Origin: a virus
Length of the DNA: 33,345 bases
IMG/VR virus record: IMGVR_UViG_3300029309_000164
Span: 1-33,345 of that record
Direction: 5' to 3' (one strand)
A program made the position numbers and the translations under genes. The notes below the pieces were generated by a model. It worked only from the letters and a program-made list of their open reading frames with translations. It made no database searches and was not told the origin of the DNA. Shown one piece after another: positions 1,917 to 11,960 of the stretch (its first letter is position 1; every line of letters starts with the position of its first letter).

Positions 1917-2395
1917 GTACACTTAAAGTCGATACTATACAGGGAAAGACATCTGCTGGAACTGTGGCTATGCCAGCTGGTCATGTAATACAAGTAATTG
2001 AGAACAGTACAACAACACAAGTTAATAGCACAAGTACAACCTATGCAGATACTGGCTTGACAGCTACTATTACACCGCAATTTACTTCATCAAAAATTGC
2101 AATTTTTATTTCTCAAAATGTTCATAAGAGCTATCAACATACTGACCAAATTCAATTAAATATATTAAGGGGTAGCACACAGCTTGTTCAATGGGCGACT
2201 GAACTCTTACATGATGACGGTGCTTTGAATCATTTTAACATATATGGCTCTCAAAGTTATATAGATAGTCCATCAACTACATCTCCTACAACTTATAAAA
2301 CTCAATTTAGAAGAAGGCTTTCAACATCTGCTCAAGTTAGTGTTCAATATGCAAGTGGAAGGTCATCAATAATGTTAATGGAAATATCTGGATGA
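1913..2395 (+). CDS. Fibre-tip/adhesin-like protein, paralogue 2
   Basis: A 160-residue protein whose ATGA start overlaps the previous gene's stop, so the two are probably translationally coupled. It begins STLKVDTIQGKTSAGTV and continues AMPAGHVIQ, closely matching paralogue 1. It ends with YIDSPSTTSPTTYKTQ and IMLMEISG, again parallel to its neighbour. The middle is divergent. The pair looks like a tandem duplication followed by divergence of the exposed portion, a common way to diversify phage adhesins. It is probably a component of the distal fibre or tail tip. The exact role is unproven. Confidence 0.7.
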   Translation: MSTLKVDTIQGKTSAGTVAMPAGHVIQVIENSTTTQVNSTSTTYADTGLTATITPQFTSSKIAIFISQNVHKSYQHTDQIQLNILRGSTQLVQWATELLHDDGALNHFNIYGSQSYIDSPSTTSPTTYKTQFRRRLSTSAQVSVQYASGRSSIMLMEISG

Positions 2396-2405
2396 GGAGA
2401 ATACA

Positions 2406-2819
2406 ATGACAACAATAGCAAATGCATTATCAGAATTAGGAATTAAAGAATGGGTTCTCAGAGGAGAGCCTACAACTGAAGCAGAGTTTAACGCTATGTT
2501 TCGCAAGGTTACTGGAGCTGACAGTAATAATTCTGCTATTGAAAGCTCAGACCCAAAGGACTTTGGAACAACATGGAAAGCTGTAAGCGATAAAAAAACA
2601 GAGCTAGTCAATGCAGAGCCTATGCGATTGCTTAGAGTTGAAAGAGATAGATTGCTTGCTGAAACAGATTGGATGGCAAACTCTGATGTAACTCTTGCAG
2701 ATAACTGGAAGACCTATAGACAACAGCTTAGAGATTTACCAGCTGGTGCATCACCAAAGCTATCAGCCGATGGGTCGCTAGATATGTCTTCTGTTACATT
2801 TCCTACTAAGCCTAGCTAA
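2406..2819 (+). CDS. Tail fibre assembly chaperone-like protein
   Basis: A 137-residue protein preceded by a good ribosome-binding sequence (GAGGAGAA, about 5 bases upstream of ATG). Residues 74-112 carry LLRVERDRLLAETDWMANSD followed by YRQQLRDLP. This is the signature of the phage tail assembly chaperone family usually found next to fibre genes (Pfam Phage_tail_APC, from memory). The N-terminal part, with a WVLRGEPTTEAEFN segment, is less recognisable. Members are thought to assist fibre folding or attachment. It closes the adhesin block, and its stop overlaps the first lysis-region gene. Confidence 0.75.
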   Translation: MTTIANALSELGIKEWVLRGEPTTEAEFNAMFRKVTGADSNNSAIESSDPKDFGTTWKAVSDKKTELVNAEPMRLLRVERDRLLAETDWMANSDVTLADNWKTYRQQLRDLPAGASPKLSADGSLDMSSVTFPTKPS

Positions 2820-8870: not shown

Positions 8871-9045
8871 ATAGTTTAAGATGTAGTTGTTCATACATTT
8901 GTTGTGCTACATCACGCAAGAAATCATCAAGAACTACTGAGTTCATTCCTAATGTTTCAACCATAGATTGTAACTCAGATACTGTCAGATTGTCTAGTTC
9001 GTCATTGACAGTATCTTTGATTTGCTCGTTGATTGGGTGACTCAC
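8869..9045 (-). CDS. Small early protein, 58 aa
   Basis: A 58-residue protein starting at GTG 9045, which overlaps the upstream stop (GTGA) and follows GGAGAAGAA. It is acidic and helical (SHPINEQIKDTVNDELDNLT, SELQSMVETLGM, LDDFLRDVAQQMYEQLHLKL), with no known motif. Its stop codon abuts the opposite-facing terminator at 8842-8870. The clear ribosome-binding site and the overlap support it as a real gene. Function unknown. Confidence 0.6.
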   Translation of the reverse strand: MSHPINEQIKDTVNDELDNLTVSELQSMVETLGMNSVVLDDFLRDVAQQMYEQLHLKL

Positions 9046-9299
9046 TTCTCTTCTCCGTAATGAATCTCTCGTACCTTTGATGAGGGTACGTTAGCTTCAT
9101 TGCGTGAGTCATCTACAAAGTGATACATCTCTTTTAAACTTTCGAGTGCTTCTTTCACTTTGCCAAATGCATATCGAACATCCCAGCTTTTGATTCGTTC
9201 TTCATCTTCGTGTAGTGACTCATAGAATAGAAAGTCTTTTTGTACTCTCTCTTCTAGTGTTACCATTTCTTTACCTCTTACTGATTTTTGTATACTCAT
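9042..9299 (-). CDS. Early protein of unknown function, 85 aa
   Basis: An 85-residue protein whose ATG 9299 overlaps the previous stop (ATGA) and follows CAGGAG. An internal ATG (residue 12) also has an AGAGG before it, so a shorter form is possible. The sequence is charged and helical (EERVQKDFLFYESLHEDEER, VKEALESLKEMYHFVDDSR). No domain is recognised. It belongs to the block of small coupled genes between the DNA-binding proteins and is co-translated with its neighbours. Confidence 0.6.
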   Translation of the reverse strand: MSIQKSVRGKEMVTLEERVQKDFLFYESLHEDEERIKSWDVRYAFGKVKEALESLKEMYHFVDDSRNEANVPSSKVREIHYGEEK

Positions 9300-10012: not shown

Positions 10013-10297
10013 TTACATGTATGGTTCATTGATTGATTTTACTTCCCTATACTCTAACTCATACTTACCTTTGGGAAGAACTGCACACTTCACAAGTTTT
10101 TTATCAATAAAGAATCGAAACTCTTTGTCACCATTCTCATGATTACGAACTGTGGTTGTGTGATGTAGGAAGACATGACTATTGTGTGATGATGTGCCAA
10201 CTCGGACTTGAACATCACCAGTATGTCTTACTCCATAGCTTTTGTCTGACTTGTATATACAAGCAGTTACCTTATTCCATATAGGGTATTGTGCCAT
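10013..10297 (-). CDS. Early protein of unknown function, 94 aa
   Basis: A 94-residue basic protein behind ATGGAGAAAGCAA. Segments include PIWNKVTACIYKSDKSYGVR, GDVQVRVGTSSHNSHVFLHH and FRFFIDKKLVKCAVL, a beta-rich pattern. A similar W.KV...(I/V).KS.KSYG...G arrangement occurs, in my memory, in small phage proteins without assigned function. It is encoded immediately downstream of the structured element at 10338-10443, which would lie in its 5' leader. Confidence 0.6.
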   Translation of the reverse strand: MAQYPIWNKVTACIYKSDKSYGVRHTGDVQVRVGTSSHNSHVFLHHTTTVRNHENGDKEFRFFIDKKLVKCAVLPKGKYELEYREVKSINEPYM

Positions 10298-10337
10298 TTG
10301 CTTTCTCCATATTTAGTTTATCATTTGTTTAAAAATT

Positions 10338-10443
10338 TACAAGCCCTCAGAACAAGAACAGATTGCATGGTCAAGGACACGAAGTGCCGAAGGGTATCCT
10401 TGACCAGAGAGCAAGATGTTTTTGTTAGAGGGAAAAGCTTGTA
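10338..10443. ncRNA. Long nested foldback with branched tip (candidate structured RNA)
   Basis: Nested pairings, outside in: TACAAGC 10338-10344 with GCTTGTA 10437-10443; CCTC 10345-10348 with GAGG 10428-10431; AACAAGAACA 10351-10360 with TGTTTTTGTT 10417-10426 (one G-U); a tandem G-A/A-G mismatch; TTGC with GCAA; then GGTCAAGGA 10369-10377 with TCCTTGACC 10397-10405. The tip can form CAC-GAA-GTG and CC-GAA-GG. The G-U pair and tandem G-A favour plus-strand RNA, but the minus strand also folds and would be the leader of the 94-aa gene. Confidence 0.6.
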
Positions 10444-10469
10444 GGTATATTAATAGGGTATTTATTTAC

Positions 10470-10730
10470 CTACATACTTACTCCTCCATATGCATGAGAG
10501 TATTTTAGTTTTACTCTGTCATAGATTTTCTTGAGCTCAACACAATGCTGGATTGCTTCTGACAATGTGTTGAAGTAGAGTCTATCGCAGTACCCATGTT
10601 CCCATTCTACTACTAAGAACTTACCTTTGGATGCTGTGTATATCTCTACGTTTCTATCTATGTTTAGCTGTGCGATTCGTTTATCTCCGGTTCTATCTAA
10701 CGTAAACATTTCTTCATCAATTTTTTCCAT
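10470..10730 (-). CDS. Early protein of unknown function, 86 aa
   Basis: An 86-residue protein with AAAGGAGAAAGC before ATG 10730. It alternates charged strands and a central helix: RIAQLNIDRNVEIYTASKGK, FLVVEWEHGYCDRLYFN, LSEAIQHCVELKKIYDRVKL. The opening resembles a small regulatory or inhibitor-type alpha/beta fold, but no family is recognised. Structured non-coding stretches lie on both sides (10338-10443 and 10793-10926), an arrangement that suggests its expression is post-transcriptionally controlled. Confidence 0.6.
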   Translation of the reverse strand: MEKIDEEMFTLDRTGDKRIAQLNIDRNVEIYTASKGKFLVVEWEHGYCDRLYFNTLSEAIQHCVELKKIYDRVKLKYSHAYGGVSM

Positions 10731-10792: not shown

Positions 10793-10926
10793 TGGTGCGG
10801 TCAGCACTCACGCCAGCCCCCACTCACCCATTAGCTCCAGCTCGACGCAGCCAATGAGTGCCTAGCTTGACGCTGGCACCATTGCTGCTAGAGCTGTTCA
10901 GCTAAAGGTCTCGATGACCCCTAGCA
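10793..10926. ncRNA. GC-rich multibranched structure (candidate structured RNA)
   Basis: A visibly GC-richer patch in an AT-rich genome. TGGTGC 10793-10798 plus CAGC 10802-10805 can pair with the contiguous GCTGGCACCA 10872-10881. Alternatively GTGCC-T-AGC 10858-10866 closes with GCT-GGCAC 10872-10879. To its right, TGCTAG 10886-10891 and CTAGCA 10921-10926 enclose AGCT-GTTC-AGCT and GGTC-TCGAT-GACC, a clean three-way junction. It overlaps the end of the 38-aa gene and forms the leader of the 86-aa gene. Mutually exclusive pairings hint at switching. Confidence 0.45.
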
Positions 10927-11151: not shown

Positions 11152-11556
11152 TTAGCTTTCAGACTTAAGCTGTTTCTTTGTTGATGCTGTGTTGTCAACA
11201 TTCTCTGTTGCACGCTTTGGCATCTCAGCAAGAGTCCTTCTAGGCTTGGCATCTAAGTTCTGAGACTCAAGCACTTTATCCACAGCTTGTTTCATCTCTC
11301 GTAACTCTGATTGAGTCACCTTAGCTTGCTCGATTTGATTATCCAATCTTTCTAGCGTGGTGGAGACTGTGTTGTTCGTTTGGCATCTCTCCCACTCTGT
11401 GTCATACTCAGCAGATTTGTCAGCTATGTATTTATCCTTGTTAGTAATCTTGAATGTCAAGTCTGCACTAGCTTTGTCTAGCTCGTAATAACGCTGCCAG
11501 TCATTTGAGATATGGTCGTAGTATGCTCTCACGTGTGTTACTAAATCTTTACTCAT
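11152..11556 (-). CDS. First gene of the early operon; coiled-coil protein
   Basis: A 134-residue protein from ATG 11556, preceded by GAAAGGAG; an in-frame upstream ATG lacks such a site and was not used. The sequence is helical with heptad-like stretches (ERLDNQIEQAKVTQSELREM, KQAVDKVLESQNLDAK) and a basic Ser/Thr-rich tail ending KKQLKSES. No catalytic motif is seen. As the first cistron behind the divergent control region it would be made earliest after infection, which makes it a candidate host-takeover or regulatory factor. That role is positional inference only. Confidence 0.65.
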   Translation of the reverse strand: MSKDLVTHVRAYYDHISNDWQRYYELDKASADLTFKITNKDKYIADKSAEYDTEWERCQTNNTVSTTLERLDNQIEQAKVTQSELREMKQAVDKVLESQNLDAKPRRTLAEMPKRATENVDNTASTKKQLKSES

Positions 11557-11592
11557 AATATTACTCCTTTCAAATATTGTTAATTTATGCAG

Positions 11593-11761
11593 ACAGGTGT
11601 CCAGCAAAGGACTGTAAAGCAACAGCTAATTTGTTCCGCGAGGAATTGCGTCTATCAGCAAGGGGAAATTAGTTGTTGAGGTAATACAAAGACCAGCCAG
11701 CACTCTTCTGCTGGCAAAGATGCACCGCCTTTATGTATGTCCTTTGATGGTAAGACTGGTC
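11593..11761. ncRNA. Tandem branched foldbacks in the early/late control region
   Basis: AACAGCTAATTT 11621-11632 pairs with AAATTAGTTGTT 11666-11677 (12 bp with one G-U, extendable by C-G). Inside are TTCC-GCGA-GGAA, whose GCGA is a GNRA-type tetraloop on the plus strand, and TTGC-8 nt-GCAA, making a three-way junction. Upstream is a bulged hairpin at 11593-11615. Downstream, GACCA 11691-11695 with TGGTC 11757-11761 encloses GCCAGCA-CTCTTC-TGCTGGC and a second arm. G-U and GNRA features favour plus-strand RNA; on the minus strand it would be the early leader. Confidence 0.55.
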
Positions 11762-11902
11762 AGTAAATTAACATCTTGAAAGGACTATATTATGGGTGAA
11801 GCATTTATGTGACCTCGTGAGAAGCATACGGAGACCATATCTTGAATGACCTCTTGGTGGCTGTATTGGGGGCTGGACATAGAAGCTAGTGAAATTAAGA
11901 CC

Positions 11903-11932
11903 TTGACATGATTACTAAAAACAAGGTTAAAT
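11903..11932 (+). promoter_or_regulatory. Candidate sigma70 promoter for plus-strand genes
   Basis: A perfect -35 box TTGACA (11903-11908) is followed after 18 bases by TTAAAT (11927-11932, 4 of 6 matches to TATAAT). The terminase small subunit gene starts 45 bases further on. The host sigma preference is unknown, so this is a consensus-based guess. Confidence 0.4.
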
Positions 11933-11960
11933 CATGGCTGACATAATCTGCATATGACAA
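11931..11960 (-). promoter_or_regulatory. Candidate early promoter on the minus strand
   Basis: Read on the minus strand, TTGTCA (11960-11955) is followed after 18 bases by CATGAT (11936-11931, 4 of 6). It would start early transcription near 11925, giving a leader of about 370 bases before the first early gene. Its -10 overlaps that of the opposing plus-strand candidate, implying mutual exclusion if both are real. Confidence 0.3.

Follow-up and report, generated by a model that had tools for sequence, protein, structure and literature searches.

A conserved RNA foldback between two early genes of a phage related to Pelagibacter phage Hodr

What does a long foldback do when it occupies the gap between two early genes of a small phage? 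The foldback considered here lies in an IMG/VR virus record of 33,345 bases, which was analysed over its full length and is referred to below as the window. The portal protein encoded in the window shares 58.6% identity with its counterpart in Pelagibacter phage EXVC031P Hodr and no more than ~35% with any other, and the window's RecE-like exonuclease likewise finds its best phage match in Hodr. Because the Hodr record is circular and comprises 34,238 bases, the window is probably a near-complete phage sequence, and the relationship to Hodr makes a Pelagibacter-type bacterium a plausible host. Genes run leftward, on the minus strand, from ~11.6 kb to 5.1 kb and rightward in the rest of the window; the leftward genes encode, among others, a RecE-like exonuclease, an Erf-like annealing protein, a RusA-like resolvase and an HTH_39 protein. 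Since no RNA polymerase is found among the 29 window proteins scanned against PHROGs, the early operon is probably transcribed by the host polymerase.

On the plus strand, positions 10338-10443 fold exactly as the first-pass annotation had described, into five nested helices of 7, 4, 10, 4 and 9 bp with a tandem G-A mismatch and two GAA mini-hairpins at the tip. The helices are TACAAGC/GCTTGTA, CCTC/GAGG, AACAAGAACA/TGTTTTTGTT (which includes one G-T pair), TTGC/GCAA and GGTCAAGGA/TCCTTGACC, respectively. The annotation's further claim, that this order lies far above chance, is borne out: the minimum free energy as RNA is -47.0 kcal/mol for the plus strand and -41.7 kcal/mol for the minus strand, and 0 of 200 dinucleotide shuffles fold as well (z of -8.8 and -7.8). 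DNA folding parameters give z of -8.2 and -7.2. In a fold scan of the whole window, the foldback ranks first on the plus strand and takes ranks 1 and 2 on the minus strand.

Because the two neighbouring genes are both encoded on the minus strand, the natural (operon) RNA is the minus-strand copy, which reads CCCUCUAACAAAAACAUCUUGCUCUCUGGUCAAGGAUACCCUUCGGCACUUCGUGUCCUUGACCAUGCAAUCUGUUCUUGUUCUGAGGGCUUGUAAAUUUUU. This RNA has UC/UC in place of the G-A mismatch, UUC in place of the GAA loops and an A.C mismatch within the 10-bp helix; the central rod comprises 31 consensus base pairs. The features of the locus are listed below.

10470-10730, minus strand: open reading frame of the 86-aa gene, upstream of the foldback; its predicted protein has no assigned function.
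10441-10473, minus strand: short hairpin GTAGGTAAATAAATACCCTATTAATATACCTAC, 33 nt, beginning at the 86-aa gene's stop codon and sharing 3 nt with the outer helix.
10437-10443, minus strand: 5' arm (TACAAGC) of the outer 7-bp helix, pairing with 10338-10344 (fold, homologues).
10331-10432, minus strand: conserved RNA element, an 89-nt rod (CCCUC...GAGGG) followed by an invariant 3' tail ending UGUAAAUUUUU (fold z, 13 orthologous contigs, alignment).
10380-10395, minus strand: invariant tip, about CCCUUCGGCACUUCGU, which may form an open loop or two mini-hairpins; the same in all six versions.
10338-10344, minus strand: 3' arm (GCTTGTA) of the outer helix (fold, homologues).
10331-10335, minus strand: T5 run (T6 in some relatives), 2 nt past the outer helix and invariant in all versions.
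10315-10342, minus strand: promoter-like TTGTAA-N16-TAAACT, then leader AAATATGGAGAAAGC (10305-10342 with the leader); its first hexamer overlaps the tail of the element.
10013-10297, minus strand: 94-aa gene, downstream of the foldback; L006-L010 and L182 have another gene in its place.

Scans with the neighbouring genes and with sequence patterns located the foldback in 13 further IMG/VR contigs. In each it occupies the gap that follows the 86-aa gene, and the genes on its two sides point the same way. Six distinct versions are represented, the window's included. The window and the most divergent version, in contig L182, are identical at 95 of 102 positions, compared with mostly 41-73% and at best 81% in the surrounding 100-base blocks. 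The conserved block extends from CCCTC through the T-run and ends there, with the sequence past the T-run diverging in L182. At rod positions 11/78 and 16/73, an A-U pair is replaced by G-C through changes on both sides, and at mismatch 12/77 both sides change together and remain unpaired. In L182, a U71 to G change faces C18 and closes a mismatch, and a C31 to A change breaks one pair; changes at rod positions 36-39 affect only the tip. Pairing holds in 98.4% of alignment cells, against 36-42% for slid partners. Covariation thus comprises two compensated positions and supports the lower rod only, the mini-hairpins at the tip showing zero variation across the six versions. The structured RNA proposed in the first-pass annotation gains support from the orthologues in 13 contigs, the two compensated pairs and the lack of an intact reading frame. 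A protein-coding gene was rejected for either strand; a 1-base deletion in L003 shifts every frame. On these comparative grounds, we regard the foldback as a real, conserved and previously unnamed RNA element.

The homologues also distinguish the two strands. Among relatives, no part of the foldback is less conserved than the outer helix, which is absent in L009 and not clear in L006. In the sense RNA it is kept through a G-U pair in L003, L007 and L011 and replaced by a different helix, AUAGA/UCUGU, in L182; none of the four retains it in the complementary RNA. One detail points the other way: where the window's sense rod has its A.C mismatch, the complement has a G-U pair. A plus-strand noncoding RNA, one of the earlier proposals, is not favoured given the minus-strand flanking genes, the T-run after the minus copy and an outer helix kept only in minus-strand RNA. 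The related remark that the foldback lacks a terminator tail holds for the plus strand and fails for the minus strand, where AA and then T5 (10335-10331) follow.

Searches for copies elsewhere, or for a known class, were negative. None of the 4227 families of Rfam 15 matched at gathering thresholds, and raising the limit to E = 10 gave only chance-level matches far below them. DNA searches of phage and plasmid records found no copy of the element, and a scan of 84,980 GTDB genomes with 18-mers returned seven unrelated chance matches, none with a similar fold. A very permissive stem-only palindrome pattern run on viral contigs gave only unrelated hairpins among the matches listed. A covariance model found no new copies in 56 loci or in 15 whole records, one of them the complete Hodr genome; its weak opposite-strand matches were the same palindrome. 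In the library searched, neither Hodr nor structured RNAs of pelagiphages yielded a relevant paper. A tRNA or tmRNA was ruled out, ARAGORN finding 0 genes in the window.

The foldback resembles intrinsic (rho-independent) terminators in being a stable sense-strand stem at a gene end, followed by T5-T6 and located before a promoter-like site. Unlike them, it has AA between stem and T-run, carriers without the outer helix (missing in L009) leave ~8 nt between GAGGG and the T-run, and the terminator scan gave no match here; the definition of an intrinsic terminator therefore does not apply. Like structured intergenic RNAs of phages and bacteria predicted by comparative genomics (for example PMC2864571, PMC8040213), it is intergenic, conserved, compensated and without an assigned function; it differs in matching no Rfam family. 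As it fails the intrinsic-terminator definition, matches no Rfam family, and is neither a tRNA nor multi-copy, the foldback is best described as a new RNA element whose general kind is already known.

The gap itself has alternative occupants among relatives. It contains the 33-nt hairpin alone in L208, L209 and L212-L215; a tRNA-Trp gene plus the hairpin in L018/L211; the foldback alone in L006, L008, L009, L010 and L182; and both foldback and hairpin in the window, L003, L007 and L011. The hairpin has been gained or lost independently of the foldback, and the 3 nt that it shares with the outer helix suggest that the two structures may be mutually exclusive. The tRNA-Trp (CCA) gene lies at 2386-2459 (plus strand) of L211, and is also present in L018, in the same gap of relatives without the foldback; the foldback is like such early-operon tRNA genes of phages in filling this gap and unlike them in not being a tRNA. 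The L011 contig (3300025127_005591) looks recombinant, combining an 86-aa gene and foldback of the L006 type with a window-type hairpin and downstream gene.

Whichever occupant is present, the gap is followed by a promoter-like site. The motif TAAACTAAAyATGGAGAAAGC, or TAAACT-AAA[CT]ATGGAGAAAGC, occurs once per contig in all gap states, even with a different downstream gene. A TTG is found 16-17 nt from TAAACT in the window, L003, the L006-type contigs, L182 and L208, of which L182 and L208 have spacers that differ in sequence; a TTG at that spacing arises by chance in ~5-8% of shuffled spacers. TTGnnn-N16/17-TAAACT is likely a sigma-70-type promoter, putatively assigned from its sequence. In Hodr, reading by eye, a hairpin and then a TTGACAT...TAATAAT promoter-like site follow the first rightward early gene. 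The first-pass annotation had also suggested a leader element. The foldback does lie upstream of the 94-aa gene, as a leader would, but the conserved promoter-like site separates it from that gene, so the element more likely ends the upstream message. The downstream gene can be swapped, the 94-aa gene giving way to a different 134/135-aa gene with the foldback retained.

The reading we favour, to which we give about an even chance, is that the foldback is a cis-acting 3'-end or processing RNA that punctuates the early operon. Once made, the sense RNA would fold into a ~100-nt rod after the 86-aa gene of the leftward operon, and this rod would define the 3' end of the upstream message. It might be cut as double-stranded RNA by an RNase III-like enzyme, block 3'-to-5' exonucleases, or aid polymerase release at AAUUUUU as a weak terminator; the internal promoter behind the rod would then start the next message. 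Consistent with such punctuation are a fold beyond chance, the compensated pairs, the shared site in 13 contigs, an outer helix that relatives keep in the sense RNA only, conservation that stops at the T-run, and a promoter-like site in every gap state. The different hairpin that foldback-less relatives carry in the same place, the hairpin and promoter-like site of Hodr, and a second conserved fold across the 86-aa gene point the same way. Against it, the sequence, tip included, is conserved beyond the needs of a generic processing stem, the T-run does not directly adjoin the stem and some carriers have a missing or unclear outer helix, as would not be expected of a standard terminator, and the close relatives L208-L215 lack the foldback.

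In coliphage T7, RNase III processing sites sit between early genes. The R1.1 RNA, a ~60-nt RNase III substrate, is cut into 47 and 13 nt (PMC4858673). The foldback is similar in being a long irregular stem with internal mismatches between co-directional and probably co-transcribed early genes, and its 31 consensus pairs suffice for the roughly two helical turns that such a site calls for. It differs in being longer and more conserved in sequence and in having a T-run and a promoter-like site behind it, and no T7-type polymerase was recognised among the proteins scanned in this phage. By analogy, the foldback would act most like the T7 early-gene RNase III sites, a likeness of action rather than of class.

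The main rival to operon punctuation is a discrete ~100-nt small noncoding RNA, produced from the early transcript's 3' region and acting in trans on host or phage RNA or protein through the invariant tip and tail. The element combines conserved sequence and compensated structure with no reading frame, as a small noncoding RNA would; it is conserved above every neighbouring block, is retained when the downstream gene is swapped, and lies in a gap that, housing a tRNA-Trp gene in a relative, can host RNA genes. High sequence conservation with an invariant tip speaks for this reading, but we consider it on balance improbable, as no promoter of its own is recognised upstream, the element is missing from close relatives, sequences complementary to the tip are no more frequent elsewhere in the phage genome than chance predicts, and any partner is hypothetical. 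More tentatively still, the element could be the first of a new class of phage small RNAs, acting in trans during Pelagibacter-type infection through the tip CCUUCGGCACUUCGUG and the tail UGUAAAUUUUU and encoded in a gap where relatives have a tRNA gene or other hairpins.

It is unlikely that the foldback serves instead as a protein-binding site in the mRNA, recognised for example by the 86-aa product or another phage protein and controlling the neighbouring gene. The conserved internal mismatches and loops would suit such a site, as would its persistence beside the 86-aa gene while the downstream gene changes. However, L208-L215 have relatives of the 86-aa gene without the foldback, and the ribosome-binding site lies outside the element. 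The 86-aa product has no match in Pfam or PHROGs, and its structure model (pLDDT 74.7, moderate confidence) gave no usable match in a structural search, including none of use to a nucleic-acid-binding protein; the model is evidence neither for nor against RNA binding.

We consider it very improbable that the element works as DNA, forming a cruciform or single-stranded foldback in replication or recombination. This proposal of the first-pass annotation gained no support, although compensation alone is also compatible with a DNA fold. The DNA fold is equally unusual, the two GAA mini-hairpins form on the plus strand, and genes for a RusA-like resolvase and RecE/Erf recombination proteins are nearby. 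Of the readings considered, however, it is the least consistent with the outer helix, which G-U pairs maintain in the sense RNA only and which is lost in the complement; the fixed site between co-directional genes, the sense-strand T-run and the absence from close relatives, which must replicate too, also speak against it. A mobile inverted-repeat (MITE-like) insertion would fit the variable presence among close relatives and an identity higher than that of the flanks, but hardly merits belief, given compensation that argues for selection and a single copy at one syntenic site in all carriers, with none elsewhere in the window, the 15 whole records or the matched viral contigs.

In the literature searched, RNA-level control in SAR11 phages is almost absent, the one match being off topic. 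As a compact and well-bounded element with presence/absence variants, compensated variants and alternative gap occupants, the foldback offers a natural test set that bears on how the early operon is partitioned in a small marine phage apparently reliant on the host polymerase. The element also provides a seed for a new RNA family.

Other folds were observed nearby. A second, strongly structured RNA flanks the 86-aa gene on its opposite side, at 10838-10925 of the window (minus strand; z about -6.5 to -9.6). It is conserved across the ten nearer-clade contigs, where compensated changes occur in its pairs (G-C to A-U and C-G to G-C). Upstream of the 86-aa gene in L209 (3535-3600; scan z -9.6), and also in L208 and L211-L213, all without the foldback, there is a strong rod, CGCGAAAAAACAAACGCTGGCATACACTTTGTGCCAGCTTATTATTTTTTCGCG. 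Before the first leftward gene, at 11556-11960 (minus strand), a long region containing a GCCAGCA...UGCUGGC stem folds extensively, with a raw energy of -100 kcal/mol over 405 nt. Finally, a strong fold (z -6.9) is present at 9001-9120 (plus strand), opposite minus-strand coding sequence.
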